Assembly (NCBI RefSeq): GCF_000735135.1
Contig: NZ_JPLZ01000006.1
Location: forward strand, 1-64,000
Reading direction: 5' to 3'
Length of the DNA: 64,000 nucleotides
From: Chryseobacterium sp. FH1
GTDB lineage: Bacteria; Bacteroidota; Bacteroidia; Flavobacteriales; Weeksellaceae
Shown here: positions 28,339 through 44,567 of the stretch, one piece after another
Layout of the letters: the number at the start of each line of letters is the position of its first letter
Position numbering within the stretch: position 1 is the first letter of the stretch
Notes under the pieces: generated by a model
Told to the model about the DNA's origin: nothing
Seen by the model: the letters and a program-made list of their open reading frames with translations, nothing else
Databases searched by the model: none
Translations under genes and position numbers: made by a program

Positions 28339-31300
28339 TTAGCTTGAAATTACTTTTAAGCTTATCCCACCTTCTTTATTTAGATGATTTGCTGTAACTC
28401 CTAATAAATTTAAAATTGAAGGGGTTACAGTCGTTTGAGAAAATCCAGGTTGAATGATGTAAATTTGAAATTTCAATTCTTTCTTCCATTTGGCTTCAAA
28501 TTGTAATTTTTCCAGCAATTCTATGTCACCTTTTCTAATTCGGGTTTGTCCTATTTTATTTTTTTTATCCTCCCTCTTTATTAAATGATTAAAGAACTCT
28601 ATATTTTCTTTATATTTCCAAATTAAAGATTTTTGTGCTTGACCACAAACTTCGTAAAAGTTTTTGATTTCGGCTGACACCAGACCATTTTGAGCAAACT
28701 TTAAATGATATAAGTCTATTACAATTTCATTTTCATTATTTTTTATAGCAACAATATCTGCTATTTCTCCCTTATTATCATCATTAAAAATTAAATCATA
28801 ATAATCTTCTTGCCTTAATCTTTCTATAGAATGAAACTGAATTGAATCGGTATTTAAAGATGCAAATCCTTCAGATTCATTTCTTAAATTAACTCCACTC
28901 CAATCCCAAGCCTCAATTTCATTTTTGGGGAAATCAAGTATTTGTTCATTAAATTTCACATAATCATTTCCCTGTAAAAATGCTCCATCGTGAAACCAAA
29001 ATTTGGGTGGTAATTCATTGAAAAATTCAGATACTGAATAATTTCTGGAACCTAATCTCACATTTGCATCAATAGTAGTAAGCTTGACAACACTGAAACT
29101 AAATACTTTATTATCATTTAGAATTGTTTCATCCAAGTTTATTTGAAAAGCAATACTATCATTTTCAGCATCTAAAGAGAAGCATAAAGGACTTTCATTA
29201 TCGGGATTGAAAGTATTAAGCTCCAAAGTTGATAAATCATAATCAATTCCATTAATTGTAAAAACAACTCTATCTTCAATTGTCTTATAAATTTCGTGAT
29301 GCCAATCTACTGAAATTGGATAAGCATTTGGTCTCACAGAAGTCCTGACTGGTTTTATGGAGTTTTTGAATAAAATATTGTTAGGATCAATTTCATCATT
29401 TGCCAATTTAACAGCAATTCCATCACACCAATCCAAGTACTGATTTATTGTTCCTCGGGAATATGACCAGATTCTTCCTTTTCTTGAACAACCTATAGAA
29501 GTCATATTGCCATCTTCAAATCCGACCCCAAACACATTGTTGCTAATGCCCGATTTTTCTTCTGCCAGAGACAGCCCTTCTTGTACACCTTTTCCATAAT
29601 AAGATTGGAAAGTGATATCTTTTCCAAGGCCTTTTCTCAGACCTAAGTTAAAAAGTCGAATCCTGTCAATATTATAAAATGTTTTGAAGACCTCTTCATC
29701 TTTTATTAGTAAAGAACTTTCACCAATAACAGCATTTGCTAATTCCTTATAAAGACTTCCTTTATCCGACGAGTGTATAAATAACAAATTTTTTGATTGC
29801 TCCCAGTAAACTATATAAATATCCCATTCAATATTATAAACGTCTTTAAAACTACCCCAATCAACGGATTTTTTATTTCCTAGAAAAACAATCAATGCCT
29901 TTTTCTCTCTATTTAAATCGAAAAATTTATAGTCATAATTTTCATAACCTTTTATACCTTTTTTGAAATTCATTGGATGCCAATCCTCGTTTTGATTTTG
30001 ATAAACCACGGAGCTAAAAGCTGGACGGACTTCTTGAAATGGAATGAGTGATTCGTCCAAGTGACTAAATCCAGCCAAGAATTCTTGTAGGTCTATCTGT
30101 TCTTGGGTAGCTTGTAAACTTAACGCTGGTAATATTGAGTTCCAATTTGATTCTTTAGCGTAAAGAAGACTTAATTCATCACTTAAAGTTGGTTGATGAA
30201 GATTTGCAATAAAACTTGCTTTACCCAAATTATTATCTTTGTTCGTCCGTGTAAACCTACCTGCAAATTGCAAAGTGATTGGTAAACTTTTTCTTACATC
30301 GTGGAATGCTGCAATTTTCAACTCGGGCAAATCAAATCCCTCTCCAAGCATATCAACACATACAATAATCTGATGCTGTTTATCTATTATATTTTGTTTA
30401 ATATTTGATTGCCCTTTTAGATTAGAATATATTTTAACAGGATTTAAGTCTGTATATTGAGAGTATATTTCAAAAACTTCATCTGCACGATATTTATCCT
30501 CACATCTAGCCATCAAAATATGCTCATAACCATTGGCTATATCTTCTCTTAATTTATTTACAGCTGTTTCGGCAATTTTTAAGTCGGCAATTTTTTGGTC
30601 ATATTCTCTTATTGGGATAAAATCAATTTCTTTAAAATAACCTTGTTCCTGAGCTTCTTTTAGCGTGAAATTATAAATGATTTTTCCATCGAGTAATTGC
30701 CCGTCATTTCTATACGGTGTTGCTGTAAAAAGAACCACTCTATTTTTATCAAAAGATTTAATGAGTTTATTCCAGCTTTTAGCTTTCGAATGATGTGCTT
30801 CATCAACAAATAAATGTGAACACTTTTCAATCATTAAGTTTTTCTGCTGAATTGACATTGATGTCAATAAATCCATCGTAGAAACAATGACATTACATTT
30901 ATCAAAAAACTGATTAAGTTCTTCCTCATTGCTAAAACCAGTATTTAATATTCCCACTTTTGGATATTTAGCGGAAGTATTTACAATTGAATTACCATCA
31001 CTATCAAGTTTTTTTAACCAACCTAAATTACAAAATTTTCCGGCTAATTGACCTCGTAGAGCATCAGATGGTACAGTAACTAAAAGCTTACTACATTTAT
31101 TAGCAATCAAGACAGATAACATTGTTTCTGTTTTACCCGTTCCTGTCGGTAATACGACTGTAGCAATTTCAGTAGCATTTGTTAAATGTCCTAAAATAGA
31201 ATGAATGGCTCCAATCTGAGGTTTACGTAATCCTATTGTATTGTTTTCAACATCTTCTTCTTTGAAATTGAATGTGTTTTTCCAAGAATTCACTATAGTA

Positions 31301-31611
31301 TCTAATAAATTATCAACATTATCAGGATGCTTTACCCATTTAATAAATTTTATATTTCCATTCTCAACATCAGCTTTGAGAAAGCTTTTTGATAATAGCA
31401 CAAAATTTTTATCGTCAGGAACATCATTCTTATCTGTAGTGATATAATATTCATTGCTATCCAAATCCTTTAAAATGACTTTTCCTCTTTGAAAAGAAAC
31501 AATTTCAAATTCTATTTCTGCTTCTTCCCTAATTAAATGAATTATTATATTCTTTTTTGCAGAGTTTCCTATTTTCTCTTCTCTTTGTAGTTTGGGTAAT
31601 TTTAAATTCAT
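28339..31611 (-). CDS. Large DEAH-box helicase with C-terminal nuclease-like domain
   Basis: 1090 residues. Superfamily 2 motifs in order: Walker A PTGTGKT (155-161), DEAH (270-273), TAT (296-298), GEGFD (423-427) and QFAGRFTR (448-455). The similarity is to the type III restriction/ResIII helicase core. Residues about 500-930 form a large unknown region. The C-terminus has ADIVAI (D952), IDLYHLKF (D966 to K971) and then YEVCGQAQKS, a pattern reminiscent of a PD-(D/E)XK-like fold, though the last motif is not canonical. It is the first gene of the operon with three small partners; no methylase is present, so it is not an ordinary restriction enzyme. Comparison with Hachiman-like helicases would be informative. 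Confidence 0.85.
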   Translation of the reverse strand: MNLKLPKLQREEKIGNSAKKNIIIHLIREEAEIEFEIVSFQRGKVILKDLDSNEYYITTDKNDVPDDKNFVLLSKSFLKADVENGNIKFIKWVKHPDNVDNLLDTIVNSWKNTFNFKEEDVENNTIGLRKPQIGAIHSILGHLTNATEIATVVLPTGTGKTETMLSVLIANKCSKLLVTVPSDALRGQLAGKFCNLGWLKKLDSDGNSIVNTSAKYPKVGILNTGFSNEEELNQFFDKCNVIVSTMDLLTSMSIQQKNLMIEKCSHLFVDEAHHSKAKSWNKLIKSFDKNRVVLFTATPYRNDGQLLDGKIIYNFTLKEAQEQGYFKEIDFIPIREYDQKIADLKIAETAVNKLREDIANGYEHILMARCEDKYRADEVFEIYSQYTDLNPVKIYSNLKGQSNIKQNIIDKQHQIIVCVDMLGEGFDLPELKIAAFHDVRKSLPITLQFAGRFTRTNKDNNLGKASFIANLHQPTLSDELSLLYAKESNWNSILPALSLQATQEQIDLQEFLAGFSHLDESLIPFQEVRPAFSSVVYQNQNEDWHPMNFKKGIKGYENYDYKFFDLNREKKALIVFLGNKKSVDWGSFKDVYNIEWDIYIVYWEQSKNLLFIHSSDKGSLYKELANAVIGESSLLIKDEEVFKTFYNIDRIRLFNLGLRKGLGKDITFQSYYGKGVQEGLSLAEEKSGISNNVFGVGFEDGNMTSIGCSRKGRIWSYSRGTINQYLDWCDGIAVKLANDEIDPNNILFKNSIKPVRTSVRPNAYPISVDWHHEIYKTIEDRVVFTINGIDYDLSTLELNTFNPDNESPLCFSLDAENDSIAFQINLDETILNDNKVFSFSVVKLTTIDANVRLGSRNYSVSEFFNELPPKFWFHDGAFLQGNDYVKFNEQILDFPKNEIEAWDWSGVNLRNESEGFASLNTDSIQFHSIERLRQEDYYDLIFNDDNKGEIADIVAIKNNENEIVIDLYHLKFAQNGLVSAEIKNFYEVCGQAQKSLIWKYKENIEFFNHLIKREDKKNKIGQTRIRKGDIELLEKLQFEAKWKKELKFQIYIIQPGFSQTTVTPSILNLLGVTANHLNKEGGISLKVISS

Positions 31612-31831
31612 TGCTATTATTAGTTTTGTTAAAAATACTATAATTCAATTGTTTGACAACCTACTGTCTAAAATTATTTTAGATTTTCAATCATTTGTAA
31701 AACTAAATTTTAAAAACCTGTCATTTTTACGGAATACCGTAACAACGTAAGAAAAGCCTCACAAGAAGAAAGGCTTAGGCATAAAATATATGGTTATGTA
31801 ATAAAGAAAGAACTTAGTCCAGAATTTTACA

Positions 31832-31857
31832 ATAAAAAAAACACCAACTCTAGTCGG
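31832..31857 (-). terminator. Terminator behind the XRE gene
   Basis: On the minus strand CCGAC-TAGA-GTTGG (one G-U pair) is followed by TG and eight T. It separates the XRE transcript from the helicase operon, whose start lies 220 bases further on. The gap 31612-31831 holds no gene; a weaker hairpin (AAGCC...GGCTT, about 31754-31778) is also present. Confidence 0.65.
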
Positions 31858-31860
31858 CAT

Positions 31861-32040
31861 TTATTCATTTATAAGTTCAAGAAATTGCTCAAGATTAATT
31901 TTTCTTGCTTTGCAAATTCTATATGGTGTTTTAACTATAGTTCTGTACGTAGAAACAATGAATTTAGGCTCTATCTTAAAACAAAACCACTTATTAGGAT
32001 TTTCTCTTATTTTGATTTTTGAATTTTTCTTCGAGAAGTT
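31861..32040 (-). other. Open frame without a start codon, overlapping the end of the XRE gene
   Basis: In the +1 frame relative to the XRE gene, 59 codons are open and end at TAA 31861-31863, only 4 bases before the terminator hairpin. The predicted tail (NPNKWFCF, then TYRTIVKTPYRICKARKINL) looks protein-like and basic. No ATG, GTG or TTG lies in a useful position, so it may be the C-terminus of a longer XRE protein broken by a frameshift in an A-rich tract near 32000-32030, or may be made by a programmed shift. Confidence 0.3.
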
Positions 32041-32302
32041 TTATCTCGCTTATCATTTCATCAATTTGAGAATGATTTATTTTAGAAAATACTCGAAGTA
32101 AATCAATTTCTAGAAAGTTGCAGATAGTAATAATAATCTCAATAGTTGGATTAGTTTTTCCTCTTTCTATTCTACCAATATAATCTTTAGAGAGTTCTAT
32201 CTCGGTGGCTACTTGAAATTGCGACAATCCTTTTCTTAAACGATATAGTTTAAAAAAGATTCCGATTTGATTTTTTATTTCTTCTGAGTTCCACTTATAC
32301 AT
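31994..32302 (-). CDS. XRE-family helix-turn-helix regulator
   Basis: 102 residues. The HTH_3 domain spans about 12-68: LRKGLSQFQVATEIELSKDY is helices 1-3, then IGRIERGKTNPTIEII. Such small Cro/C1-like proteins regulate adjacent mobile or defence genes. It sits upstream of the helicase operon on the same strand, but a terminator separates them, so it would act in trans on the helicase promoter or on the divergent sigma-dCas12f promoter 160 bases away. The target is inferred only from position. Confidence 0.85.
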   Translation of the reverse strand: MYKWNSEEIKNQIGIFFKLYRLRKGLSQFQVATEIELSKDYIGRIERGKTNPTIEIIITICNFLEIDLLRVFSKINHSQIDEMISEIKLLEEKFKNQNKRKS

Positions 32303-32461
32303 TCAGTAAATTTTATAAATATTTATGTTTTTCATAGAGACTTATAGTACTTACTGAATAAATATTCTTATATTTGGAACAAATTACCTACCAAGGTAGT
32401 TATCAATAACTTCAAAGAAACATAGAAGCTATTAATTAGCTCTCGATTGGAAATACTGTGT

Positions 32462-33277
32462 ATGAAAAGAACAGAATTTTTGCCCCGAAAGTTAACCAAT
32501 CTTCAGCTATACGAACTGCTGAAAGAAGGCAATCCGACCGCACTTGAACATATTCATCTGCGCTACAAAAGACTTCTTTTCTGGGTTGGATGGCAGGTAC
32601 TTAAGGATGATTTTGTAGTGGACACTATTGTTCAGGATACCTTCCTTAAATTGTGGTTACACCGTGACACCATTGAAACCCCTGATCATATTACTGGCTT
32701 TTTACGGTTTGTTATGAAAAGAGACTGTATATCGTATGTCACTGCGCCGAAGAATAAATTCAATCGTCTAATTGCTTCTCTTGAAAGTTTTGAGAATTAT
32801 CAGGATTATCTTGTGGGTTATGATCCACTAACTGATAAAGAGAATCTCCTCAGTCACGAATCGGATCAGAAAAATTTCGATGAAGTCAAAAAGGTTTTAC
32901 CTGTTCTGGATCCCAAAAGAAAACATCTGATTGAACTTTGCTTAGAATATGGCTTTCAGCACAAACCAATCGCAGAAGCAATGGGAAGCAGTGTAAAAGA
33001 CATCAGCAATGAGGTAAGCAGAGCTATAAATGATCTCCGGAAAATTCTTAATAGAAGTTCTTTTGAACAGCCACAGGGAAAGGCTTTCGATAACAAGGAG
33101 CAGTCAGTAAAACTCAGTAGTCAACAACTCGATATTTTGAAAAGAAGGTTTGAACAGAAATCTTCATTTGCAGGTATTGCTCAGGAACTCAAATTACCTG
33201 AAAAGACAGTACATCGGGAATTTCTGTATGCATATCAACATTTACAAAATCAAAACACTTCTGAAATACCTCTTTGA
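32462..33277 (+). CDS. ECF-like sigma factor paired with dCas12f
   Basis: 271 residues from ATG 32462 (a TTG 15 bases upstream is less likely). A sigma-70 region 2 is seen at about 12-95 (DTIVQDTFLKLWLHRDTI matches the -10-binding helix of ECF factors) and region 4 at about 145-196 (KRKHLIEL...IAEAMGSSVKDISNEVSRA). A second region 4-like helix-turn-helix follows at about 217-262 (FAGIAQELKLPEKTVHREF), which is unusual. No anti-sigma gene is adjacent. The stop is 1 base before the start of the Cas12f homologue, so the two are translated together. Established knowledge: some Bacteroidetes ECF sigma factors form RNA-guided complexes with dCas12f. A conventional ECF factor is the alternative. Confidence 0.85.
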   Translation: MKRTEFLPRKLTNLQLYELLKEGNPTALEHIHLRYKRLLFWVGWQVLKDDFVVDTIVQDTFLKLWLHRDTIETPDHITGFLRFVMKRDCISYVTAPKNKFNRLIASLESFENYQDYLVGYDPLTDKENLLSHESDQKNFDEVKKVLPVLDPKRKHLIELCLEYGFQHKPIAEAMGSSVKDISNEVSRAINDLRKILNRSSFEQPQGKAFDNKEQSVKLSSQQLDILKRRFEQKSSFAGIAQELKLPEKTVHREFLYAYQHLQNQNTSEIPL

Positions 33278-33278
33278 A

Positions 33279-34373
33279 ATGGAAAAATCCAAAATTACAC
33301 TTACCCGAAGAATTCAGTTGCTGATCGATCTTCCTGCAAATGAACAAAAAGAGATGTGGGAAAAACTATATCGTTATCAGAACCGGTGTTTCCGGGCGGC
33401 TAATTTAATTGTTTCCCATCTGTATGTTCAGGAAATGATCAAAGATTTCTTTTACCTTACAGAAGACATCCAATACAAACTAGCGGATGTAAACAAAGAT
33501 GAAATGGGAATGTTTACGAGATCGAAAACACACACAACTGCACGGATGATCTTCGACCGTTTCAAAGGGGAGGTTACGACCGATATTCTAGGAAGCCTAA
33601 ACCATACGATTCAATCTACCTTTTCCAAAAACAAAGCCGACTATTGGCAAGGGTCTCAATCACTGAGAAACTTTAAAAAAGACATTCCCATTCCGCTTCC
33701 GATCAAATGCATCAGCAAAATGAAGTATGATCCCGAAAAGAAAGCGTTTAGTTTCAATATGTTTGCGATCCCTGTCAAAACGTATTTAGGGAGAGATTTC
33801 TCTGATAAACATTTGGTACTGGAACGTCTCTTAAGAGAAGAGATCAAGCTGTGCAATTCACAGGTACAGCTAAAAGACGGTAAAATATTTTGGCTAGCTG
33901 TTTTTGAATTTGAAAAGGAAGACCACGGTTTAAAACCCGACATCATTGCTGAAGCATCCCTGTCATTAGAACATCCGATCGTGGTAAAAGCCAATAATGT
34001 ACGGATGAATATTGGCTCGAAAGAGGAATTCCTCTACCGCAGATTGGCGATCCAGGCCAGTAATAAAAGGATTCGAGCCGGAGTCGCATATTCCCGTTCC
34101 GGACATGGAACCAAACGCAAACAGAAGGCACTGCACAAAACAGAGGATCTGGAAAACCGTTTTGTCAGTCATCATCTTCATCTGTACAGCCGCAAATTGA
34201 TTGATTTCTGCATCAGGCAACAGGCAGGCACCCTTATCCTTAAAGATCAGGAAGACAAAATAGGAATTGCAAAAGAACAGGAATTTGTGCTTCGCAACTG
34301 GAGCTATTATGAACTGCAGACCAAAATAAAATACAAAGCAGAAAAAGCCGGTATCGAATTGATTATCGGATAG
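33279..34373 (+). CDS. Nuclease-dead Cas12f/TnpB homologue (dCas12f)
   Basis: 364 residues from ATG 33279; the open frame extends further upstream but only inside the sigma gene. A helical N-terminal recognition region with YQNRCFRAANLIVSHLY (32-50) is followed by a beta-rich part (about 157-215). The C-terminus aligns with the TnpB/Cas12f RuvC core: FVLRNWSYYELQTKIKYKAEKAGIELI (about 336-362) is the conserved helix and strand before the zinc finger. The catalytic sites are lost. The RuvC-I GIDLG equivalent reads ASLSLEHP (226-233), RuvC-II LED reads LKD (321-323), and the protein stops before the zinc finger and RuvC-III. It should bind guide RNA and DNA without cutting and recruit the sigma factor. 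A decayed TnpB is the alternative, but the intact operon argues against it. Confidence 0.82.
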   Translation: MEKSKITLTRRIQLLIDLPANEQKEMWEKLYRYQNRCFRAANLIVSHLYVQEMIKDFFYLTEDIQYKLADVNKDEMGMFTRSKTHTTARMIFDRFKGEVTTDILGSLNHTIQSTFSKNKADYWQGSQSLRNFKKDIPIPLPIKCISKMKYDPEKKAFSFNMFAIPVKTYLGRDFSDKHLVLERLLREEIKLCNSQVQLKDGKIFWLAVFEFEKEDHGLKPDIIAEASLSLEHPIVVKANNVRMNIGSKEEFLYRRLAIQASNKRIRAGVAYSRSGHGTKRKQKALHKTEDLENRFVSHHLHLYSRKLIDFCIRQQAGTLILKDQEDKIGIAKEQEFVLRNWSYYELQTKIKYKAEKAGIELIIG

Positions 34374-34381
34374 CTAAAAAA

Positions 34382-34471
34382 AATGAGGGTGCTTGTAAAC
34401 CCGTAGGGTGAGGTCATGAACACTCACTAAATACCTAATAGTATATACAACGGCGTGGGCTTCTTTTTTTA
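34382..34471 (+). ncRNA. Candidate guide RNA for dCas12f (scaffold plus 3' guide)
   Basis: It begins 9 bases after the dCas12f stop. Predicted hairpins are ACCC-GTA-GGGT (34399-34409), or alternatively GTGAG/CTCAC (34408-34412 with 34423-34427), then ATAC/GTAT (34431-34434 with 34441-34444). The scaffold would end in ACAAC at 34451, the type of ending that precedes the guide in Cas12f and TnpB RNAs, so the guide would be 34452-34471, starting GGCGTGGGCTTC. No repeat array is present, so this would be a single-guide RNA. Boundaries are inferred by eye. No equally good match to the guide was noticed elsewhere in the window. Confidence 0.55.
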
Positions 34472-34832
34472 TCTAAATCTTGATTGTGAAAAATGGAAGT
34501 AACTAATGTGATACAGAATTAATTTGTAAGAAATAATTTTCAAGATAAAAGAAGTATTTTGAATTTTAAGGATTGATAGTTTAATCATGAATTTGAATAT
34601 TTCATCAAATTGGGGTTTTTACTCTATCTATTTACGCATAGTTGAAAACAAATAACTTTATGAACTTTAATTCATTTAATCTACTTGCAGGTTGAAGTAT
34701 AGATAAAGCCATGATGATGCGTAGGAAATGCTACTTGACTAGAAATATTAGGATATTTTAATAATTTAATGTTTTTTTGGATCTGTGATTGAATCTGAGG
34801 ATCTCACCTGTACTAGTATTAGTCAATGGAAA
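34472..34832. other. Non-coding right edge of accessory region A
   Basis: No gene seen. The sequence is AT-rich up to about 34800, after which core-like genes resume. I looked for a copy of the tRNA-Ser 3' end as a right attachment site and saw none. Confidence 0.4.
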
Positions 34833-35189
<357 letters not shown>

Positions 35190-35244
35190 TCATTTTTATT
35201 CAGACAAATTTAAACAATCTAATGTTTATTTAAAACAAGACACT

Positions 35245-35346
35245 CAAACAAAATTTTCCTCCCTTTAGTGCTAGGGGCAAGAAAATTTCGCCGCCCAAAC
35301 AAAATTTCCCTCCCTTTAGGGTAAGGGCAAGGAAATCTCGCCTCCG
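35245..35346. repeat. Two tandem copies of a 51-base unit
   Basis: Units begin at 35245 and 35296 with CAAACAAAATTTTCCTCCCT and CAAACAAAATTTCCCTCCCT and end in AAATTTCGCC and AAATCTCGCC. Non-coding. The rest of the gap 35187-35536 shows no gene. Confidence 0.75.
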
Positions 35347-35536
35347 TACCATTGATGTTTTTCCTCTTTTTAAATGCTGTCACAAACTCAACCCTTCAAC
35401 TTCTAACCGTAAACCCGTCCTCCAACTTCCAAGCTCCAGCCTCAACCCACTTTAACAAACATTTATAATTCTCAAAACCCGCATCGGCATTATATTTTCT
35501 TACTTGATGACATACTAATCACAAAAATATATTATT

Positions 35537-36085
35537 ATGTCAAAGAAAATTGCAATACTTGCAACCCACGGATTTGAAGAAAGTGAATTGAGTTCTCCAA
35601 AAGAACATTTGGAACAACAAGGCTGGACGGCGCACATTGTAAGTCCTCAAGATGGAAGCATCAAAGCCTGGTCTGGAAAAGACTGGGGAAAGGAATACAA
35701 GGTAGATGTGACACTTGACGAAGCCTCAGCAAGCGACTATGATGCATTAGTATTGCCAGGAGGTGTCATCAATCCAGATAAACTGAGAACTAATAAAGCG
35801 GCTTTGTCATTCGTGCAGGATTTCTTCAAACAGCACAAGCCAGTGGCGGCCATTTGCCACGGTCCTCAGATTCTAATCAATGCAGGTGCTACAGAAGGCA
35901 GAAAAATGACCTCGGTAGAATCCATCAGCGTCGACCTGAAAAATGCAGGTGTGATCTGGGAAGACAGTGAAGTAGTGGTGGACAATGGCTTGGTGACAAG
36001 CCGTACACCAGAAGATCTTCCAGCCTTCAATACCAAATTGGTAGAGGAGATCAAAGAAGGAAAACACGAAGATCAGAATCTCTAA
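35537..36085 (+). CDS. DJ-1/PfpI-family type 1 glutamine amidotransferase-like protein
   Basis: 182 residues of the PfpI/YhbO group. The nucleophile elbow AICHGPQ places the reactive cysteine near residue 115. The N-terminus KIAILATHGFEESEL has the conserved Glu of the family, and TSRTPEDLPAF near the C-terminus is typical. Members are linked to stress resistance, acting on glycated or misfolded proteins, or have protease or hydratase activity. It is monocistronic with a terminator 25 bases downstream. Confidence 0.9.
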   Translation: MSKKIAILATHGFEESELSSPKEHLEQQGWTAHIVSPQDGSIKAWSGKDWGKEYKVDVTLDEASASDYDALVLPGGVINPDKLRTNKAALSFVQDFFKQHKPVAAICHGPQILINAGATEGRKMTSVESISVDLKNAGVIWEDSEVVVDNGLVTSRTPEDLPAFNTKLVEEIKEGKHEDQNL

Positions 36086-36110
36086 ACTGATTTTCAAAAT
36101 TATCATATTT

Positions 36111-36142
36111 AAGACCTGGGTTTTTGTCTGGGTCTTTTTTTT
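36111..36142 (+). terminator. Intrinsic terminator of the PfpI-family gene
   Basis: AAGACC (36111-36116) pairs with GGTCTT (36131-36136), followed by eight T. Confidence 0.65.
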
Positions 36143-36282
36143 GTGTTGGAGAGTGGTAGCGCTTGAGGGTTTAAGGGTGACAAAGAAATGTCGAAGGTTA
36201 TGGGAGGAAGTTTTATAGAGCTGGCTGAGCCAGCGATTGTTATAGGTCTTCGAGAATCTCTGACTGGCATTTGATTAATTTC

Positions 36283-36645
36283 ATTTATTCACAAAGAACT
36301 CGAAGATTTCAATATTAGTAGCCATAGGTGAAACCTATGGAACATCGCCAATGGTAATGAAAAAGATATTTTGACATTTATTCACAAAGAACTCGAAGAG
36401 TTCAATATTAGTAGCCGTATGTGAAACCTATGGATCGCCAATGGTAATGAAAAAGATAGTTTGACATTTATTCACGAAGAACTCGAAGGGTTCAATATTA
36501 GTAGCCGTATGTGAAACCTATGGATCGCCAATGGTAATGAAAAAGATAGTTTGACATTTATTCACGAAGAACTCGAAGAGTTCAATATTAGTAGCCACAT
36601 GTGAAACCTATGGAACATTGCCCATGGTAGTGAAAGATCTATGTG
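36283..36645. repeat. Four tandem copies of a 90-93-base unit
   Basis: Units start at 36283, 36376, 36466 and 36556 with ATTTATTCAC(A/G)AAGAACTCGA, followed by TTCAATATTAGTAGCC, GTGAAACCTATGGA and CGCCAATGGTAATGAAAAAGATA. Copies 2 and 3 are nearly identical; copy 1 has a 3-base insertion and copy 4 diverges after about 60 bases. Each unit contains a short inverted match (CATAGGTGAAACCTATG in copy 1). There is no conserved reading frame. The flanks (36143-36282 and 36646-36801) hold no gene. Confidence 0.85.
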
Positions 36646-44401: not shown

Positions 44402-44497
44402 TTTGGGCAGCTATTTCCGCCTTCCGCTCCCAATCTTTTTTGCAGACGATTTCAGTCCAAATAGAACTTTAGTTTACGCAAAAAAGGATTTCCGCTC
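44402..44497. repeat. Dispersed intergenic repeat, copy 2
   Basis: It starts TTTGGGCAGCTATTTCCGCC and ends AAAAAAGGATTTCCGCTC. It shares the AATCTTTTTTGCAGACGATTTC block with 22443-22560, and is followed by GTCGGGCTGCAGATTC as at positions 122 and 22618. Confidence 0.7.
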
Positions 44498-44567
44498 AAG
44501 TCGGGCTGCAGATTCAATATAAATCAACGTTTTGTACAAGATATAAAGATGAGTAAAATATAAAAGT

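Follow-up and report, generated by a model that had tools for sequence, protein, structure and literature searches.

A dCas12f-sigma factor module of Chryseobacterium and its probable targets in the structured leaders of SusCD operons

The window, a stretch of 64,000 nucleotides of DNA from Chryseobacterium sp. FH1, carries an ECF-type sigma factor gene, a nuclease-dead Cas12f (dCas12f) gene and a guide RNA which, judged by sequence, form a dCas12f-sigma system, a type of bacterial gene switch that is already known but was discovered only recently. The module is likely an RNA-guided activator whose targets are the leaders of two SusCD-S9-peptidase operons and of two other sigma-dCas12f operons. 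Few natural RNA-guided activators exist, and an earlier note on this DNA asked which genes they control in the hosts that carry them. The conserved guide, the shared leader address and the matched guide and leader variants lead to a short list of four candidate sites in the genome.

The sigma factor, dCas12f and guide RNA

The sigma factor gene (32462..33277, forward strand) runs from an ATG at 32462 to a stop at 33277, and the dCas12f gene (33279..34373, forward strand) begins at 33279; the coordinates that the earlier note had given to the module are correct. The sigma-70 family factor claimed there is confirmed by Pfam matches to Sigma70_r2 (1.6e-5) and, in two region-4-like stretches, to Sigma70_r4 (2.3e-10). 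In a search against solved structures, residues 17-262 of its 271 match the RpoE chain 9n9q_C (E 8e-80). The same search, which supplies the alignment to dCas12f and TnpB families that had been proposed, matches residues 2-364 of the 364-aa dCas12f to the 'Nuclease-deactivated Cas12f' of 9n9c (E 1.2e-156), followed by 13 other Cas12f/TnpB-type sequences (8.7e-39 to 3e-10). In Pfam, dCas12f gives sub-threshold hits only (Cas12f1-like_TNB, 0.048; OrfB_IS605, 0.18). PDB entry 9n9q contains both chains, dCas12f and RpoE, and the reading of the module as dCas12f, ECF sigma factor and guide RNA agrees with the match of both proteins to this pair and with a guide RNA in the expected place.

The RuvC motif GVDLG of the relatives 9nzo and 8hr5 reads EASLS in the window dCas12f, resulting in the loss of the RuvC-I Asp. 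The alignment also stops 60-130 residues short of the C-terminal end of the 13 Cas12f/TnpB-type relatives, and the absent tail presumably includes the zinc ribbon and the last of the three catalytic residues, an Asp, as in the family. The earlier statement that the RuvC residues are gone holds for the RuvC-I Asp and the absent C-terminal part; the position of the RuvC Glu lies where the alignment has gaps.

The guide RNA scaffold is located at 34385..34451 (forward strand), ends in ...GTATATACAAC, and is followed by the guide GGCGTGGGCTTC and then seven T (34452..34470, forward strand). The scaffold was delimited with an alignment and pair counts of 19 chosen sequences, comprising the window group and relatives at 59-62% protein identity. 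These scaffolds are conserved as far as ...ACAAC (one CAAT, one CAGC), and CAAC is an ending also known from Cas12f scaffolds. The guide RNAs of distant relatives diverge in sequence past CAAC, which fits the guide start at 34452 that the earlier note had placed there. The scaffold has 13 pairs in three stems with 247 of 247 cells paired, and 12 cells show double-sided changes against a shuffled mean of 4.2. Two other measures gave no excess over shuffles (204 and 500 of 500), and the window guide RNA, folded as a single sequence, does not surpass shuffled versions (z -0.41). Rfam returned no match at gathering score on the module; elsewhere in the window, at 44410-44511, a Flavo-1 RNA scores 42.6 against a gathering score of 42.

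The module had been described as a new example in its lineage, but it is not an isolated one. The genome has three dCas12f loci, at C6:33279 (the window copy, copy 1), C6:1464645 (copy 2, 86% identical) and C6:1579146 (copy 3, 81%), and a scan of public genomes found 34 loci in Chryseobacterium, Epilithonimonas, Kaistella, Soonwooa and one Flavobacteriia MAG. When the order was sampled evenly, a dCas12f match was found in 22 of 395 genomes. Clustering of ORFs places a sigma ORF next to dCas12f in 34 of the 37 loci, the exceptions being L010 and the partial matches L039 and L040. The guide starts with GGCGTGGGY in all 37 loci (34 public and three own); the letters after the guide start GGCGTGGG are CT in 24, TT in 12 and TC in one, and the four letters preceding the guide are CAAC in 34, CAGC in two and CAAT in one. 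Further dCas12f loci came from wider genome scans, and their guides were read in part. Tandem guide RNAs occur in two distant relatives, three in G342 and four in G366. Downstream of dcas12f, at L102:7265-7720 and L103:9348-9930, such arrays consist of three and four guide RNAs whose guides differ. Truncated or broken-frame dcas12f copies, seen as fragments in G005, G396 and G193 and also at L023, suggest gain and decay of the module.

Among known systems, the dCas12f-RpoE (sigmaE) system (PDB 9n9c, 9n9m, 9n9o, 9n9q) is the one in which both proteins are homologous to those of the window over most of their length. The window module shares with it a lost RuvC centre, a linked RpoE-like sigma factor and a downstream scaffold followed by a guide, and differs in that the window-type guide start is the same in 37 loci and points to a leader common to susCD and the module's own operons. 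Its order of genes and the position of its guide RNA are reportedly as in the window module, and the 5' G reported beside its target may be shared as well. CRISPR-Cas12f and IS605 TnpB nucleases (PDB 7c7l, 7l48, 9nzo) are sequence relatives (E 8.7e-39 to 3e-10) from which the window protein is set apart by the lost RuvC-I Asp, the absent C-terminus and the sigma partner. A direct-repeat search of 31500-36500 found no repeat array around the guide; this, the lost Asp and a guide that begins alike in all 37 loci do not correspond to CRISPR-Cas12f immunity. Another likeness is to the TldRs, TnpB-like nuclease-dead proteins which are described as repressors (PMC13418256). Both are domesticated nuclease-dead TnpB-family proteins that use a guide RNA in controlling genes, but the window dCas12f is paired with a sigma factor, as is dCas12f in 34 of 37 loci, and so does not correspond to a protein that lacks a sigma partner and blocks transcription. 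A linked sigma factor is not known to be part of TldRs.

Guide matches in this and related genomes

The earlier note had proposed a search of the genome for the guide preceded by G, and the outcome depends on the length of guide considered. The first 12 guide nucleotides have no match in the genome except in two guide-RNA genes, while a seed of ~10 nt recurs in leaders. The pattern GGCGTGGGYT occurs ten times in the genome (three times in its reversed control): in three guide-RNA genes, in two leaders, and five times inside open frames of 187-781 codons. These last five exact 10-mer matches, all in long open frames, were put down to chance. Outside long open frames and guide-RNA genes, the only exact 10-nt matches are the two leaders, at C6:1463654, before dCas12f copy 2, and at C6:689193, before a SusCD-peptidase operon. 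Two further leader sites carry one G-to-A change, at C6:233097, before a second SusCD-peptidase operon, and at C6:1578148, before copy 3. The two standalone leader operons (C6:233043 and C6:689136) encode SusC, SusD and an S9 peptidase.

In the window lineage, the pairing of guide and leader extends over ~10 nt, after which the guide runs into T. None of 1000 shuffles reaches the match of the copy 2 guide to its own leader, and for copy 3, with 5 nt up to the G-to-A change, 17 of 1000 do. If the guide begins immediately past CAAC, the sites in the window lineage are preceded by C, A or G. The 5' G beside the target expected by the earlier note is found directly at the sites in G101, and in the window lineage and G342 the fit requires leaving out the first nucleotide past CAAC. 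Candidate sites with a 5' G upstream of genes lie in leaders of this genome and of relatives, those of the window lineage being of seed length and uncertain in the register of guide to G. The leader core lies upstream of the locus's own sigma gene in 27 of 37 loci (L039 has no upstream sequence), and G plus the site is intact in 23 of these.

In some distant relatives, the guide and the target differ together. The G101 guide GCGTGGGCTCTCTTATT faces G|GCGTGGGCTCACTTATT in its own leader, a match reached by none of 1000 shuffles. In G342, two of three guides contain AAAGCCTTCCC, and G+AAAGCCTTCCC occurs once in 4.0 Mb, upstream of the sigma gene of the same module; again, no shuffle in 1000 reaches the match. 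Guide 2 of G366, GCGTGACAT, corresponds to a variant of one leader of the same genome among the 78 distinct leader cores in the fetched loci. Guide 3 of G366, GCGTGAGCTT, has two exact G-preceded hits, located 47 and 50 bp upstream of the start codons of two susC genes that are closely similar to each other; a looser pattern adds a third place, which reads GGCGCGAGCTT inside an open frame, with zero hits in the reversed control. Other distant cases do not fit, so that the joint change appears to hold in part. The G395 guide matches neither its genome nor its leader (for the leader, 440 of 1000 shuffles), the G342 guides have no match in that genome's own susC leader, the G366 guides share 6 nt with the leader of their own operon (37 of 1000 shuffles), and the G317 guide shares 7 nt with its leader (1 of 1000 shuffles).

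These cases bear on the alternative that the module is an RNA-guided activator whose match to the leader is an inherited resemblance or a side effect, the real target being elsewhere, outside the genome (for example, on a mobile element), or recognized with many mismatches. The shortness of the pairing, only ~10 nt in the window lineage, is compatible with this, as are the G395 guide that matches nothing found, the presence of leaders without dCas12f, and the frequent location of modules near restriction or defence, metal-resistance and mobilisation genes. It does not explain why guide variants track leader or upstream variants where the guides are unrelated (G101, G342 and one G366 guide), and we consider an incidental match unlikely.

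The structured leader and its terminator

The 17-mer GGCGTGRGCTCNCTTAT of the leader that contains the proposed targets was found in 70 of the 395 genomes of the order sample, with zero occurrences of the reversed control. Downstream of the leaders, 53 ORFs were collected from 69 fetched loci after dropping 11 duplicate leaders, four loci without a 100-residue ORF and one without a recognised leader; TonB plug/SusC domains are present in 35 of them and sigma-70 region 4 in nine. The leader stands before SusC operons in Flavobacteriales (for example, L056:7090-7300 and L055:6990-7190, with 78 distinct cores in the fetched loci) and, in four places, before a protein of ~185 aa that is not SusC (L134:695-1261, L137:1786-2331, L143:592-1149 and L146:2008-2562), the L134 and L146 copies of which have no Pfam match. 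The hairpin had at first suggested that the module is a mobile unit whose left end resembles that of a transposon, an idea abandoned after the leader had been found before many susC genes.

In an alignment of 24 chosen leaders, 30 pairs are formed in 99.4% of 714 cells, compared to 32-50% when the strands are slid, and double-sided changes occur in 33 cells against 5.8 in shuffles. The leader is thus a conserved RNA structure with compensatory changes. In two places searched, Rfam 15 has no match to the leader RNA at gathering score; copy 2 with its leader and one susC leader gave weak hits only, far below it. A second stem of 11 pairs, GGCGTGGGCTC with GAGTTCCACGCC, overlaps this structure and is paired in 99.2% of cells, compared to 40-66% when slid. 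Its covariation is no greater than in shuffles (34 of 500), and in 57 of its 58 distinct matches TTTT follows at a distance of at most 14 nt. By its pairing and its T run, this stem is a probable intrinsic terminator or attenuator stem. The guide-matching site is its 5' strand, and the 3' strand starts 54-59 nt after the G (78 matches, duplicates included). Because the site forms one strand of this probable stem, initiation guided to it could circumvent termination.

The distribution of the leader is wider than that of dCas12f. The 17-mer is present in 17 of 22 dCas12f genomes compared to 53 of 373 others, and within the family in 15 of 17 compared to 29 of 59 (Fisher p 0.005, uncorrected for kinship and with self-leaders counted). 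A looser core pattern, with one hit in the reversed control, is found in 30 of 31 dCas12f genomes (G005, among the 31, having a fragment only) and in 10 of 11 dCas12f-negative congeners. A leader that serves dCas12f solely was therefore rejected. Leaders in genomes without a dCas12f hit indicate that the leader has another role, and the activator seems fitted to this leader.

Starting from the genes, the guide RNA anatomy, the conserved guide, the leader sites, the matched variants in some distant genomes and the leader covariation, we infer DNA binding, sigma recruitment, a start site, terminator bypass and expression. The guide RNA, transcribed directly downstream of dcas12f, would load dCas12f, and the complex would bind DNA at G followed by GCGTG(G/A)GCT. 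The linked sigma factor would then bring RNA polymerase to the guide-matching site, the four candidate leader sites being C6:233097 and C6:689193 (SusC-SusD-S9-peptidase) and C6:1463654 and C6:1578148 (sigma-dCas12f). If transcription starts just downstream of the site and before the 3' terminator strand, the RNA would lack the 5' strand and escape termination. Published work on relatives reportedly describes DNA binding, recruitment of polymerase by the sigma factor and a start downstream of the R-loop. Such a bypass, if true, would join RNA-guided initiation to transcription attenuation.

The guide could alternatively act on the leader RNA. Being identical to the 5' strand of the terminator stem, the guide is also the complement of the 3' strand, and its GGCGUGG end could pair with CCACGCC and cause antitermination in trans, with dCas12f-sigma as a carrier or in a separate role. 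The two G366 guide 3 sites just before susC starts have the same sense as the mRNA, at places where a complementary RNA would not be expected, and the published work on relatives reportedly concerns DNA binding. We consider an action of the guide on RNA very unlikely and prefer guided initiation on DNA.

A broader proposal is more tentative and, in our estimate, somewhat less probable than its negation. The near-invariant guide might create a guided promoter in SusCD leaders, past the 5' terminator strand, and the same address before most sigma-dCas12f operons (23 of 37) might turn the whole into a self-reinforcing, genome-wide uptake regulon set by a single guide, in which multi-guide arrays of relatives serve leader variants. 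Both the attenuator reading and the leader address common to these operons could be new. Neither was found in an open-access library that also lacked the key dCas12f-sigma papers, so this proves little.

Upstream region and neighbouring genes

Upstream of the window module, a divergent gene encodes an XRE-type HTH regulator (31994..32302, reverse strand; HTH_3, E 1.3e-12). The sequence TATATTTG at 32369..32376 (forward strand) was read as a promoter box, which we take to be the Bacteroidetes-type -7 box. TA..TTTG is present 60-170 nt upstream of 68 of the 78 distinct leader cores, a count made with no chance control. Alignment with copies 2 and 3 as well as two susC leaders identifies 32410..32461 (forward strand) as a leader relic lacking that part of the hairpin which contains the guide-matching site; upstream of the window sigma gene there is no guide match, the best being 2 nt. 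This deletion, together with the dcas12f fragments in other genomes, could mean that copy 1 is a degenerate, inactive relic beside two active copies elsewhere. However, both of its reading frames are open and of full length, its scaffold and guide are intact, and the promoter box and the divergent regulator are retained, which makes a relic highly improbable.

The ORFs nearest upstream of and antisense to 71 fetched leaders (some duplicates included) match HTH_26 in 47 cases and HTH_3 in 39, with E values up to 0.01. These divergent regulators are highly diverse, with 14-47% identity to that of the window in a set of 38, while the leader and the operon are conserved. Among 61 first or second genes beyond the divergent regulator, type I restriction families are the commonest (4-6 members each), and in a set of 62 downstream genes DUF4172, Fic, Toprim and metal-transport families lead the Pfam matches with 3-4 members each; the sets were built without the L025 upstream protein, the L027 downstream protein and loci L019-L021, L039 and L040. 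The neighbouring genes of the module are read as accessory-island content rather than as function. In the window, a ResIII/DEAD helicase gene lies beside the module at 28339-31611. Both leader-susCD operons of this genome are also near defence-like genes, which encode a SIR2-TPR protein and a protein with a NACHT-associated domain (L055:3464-5275 and L056:2027-6094).
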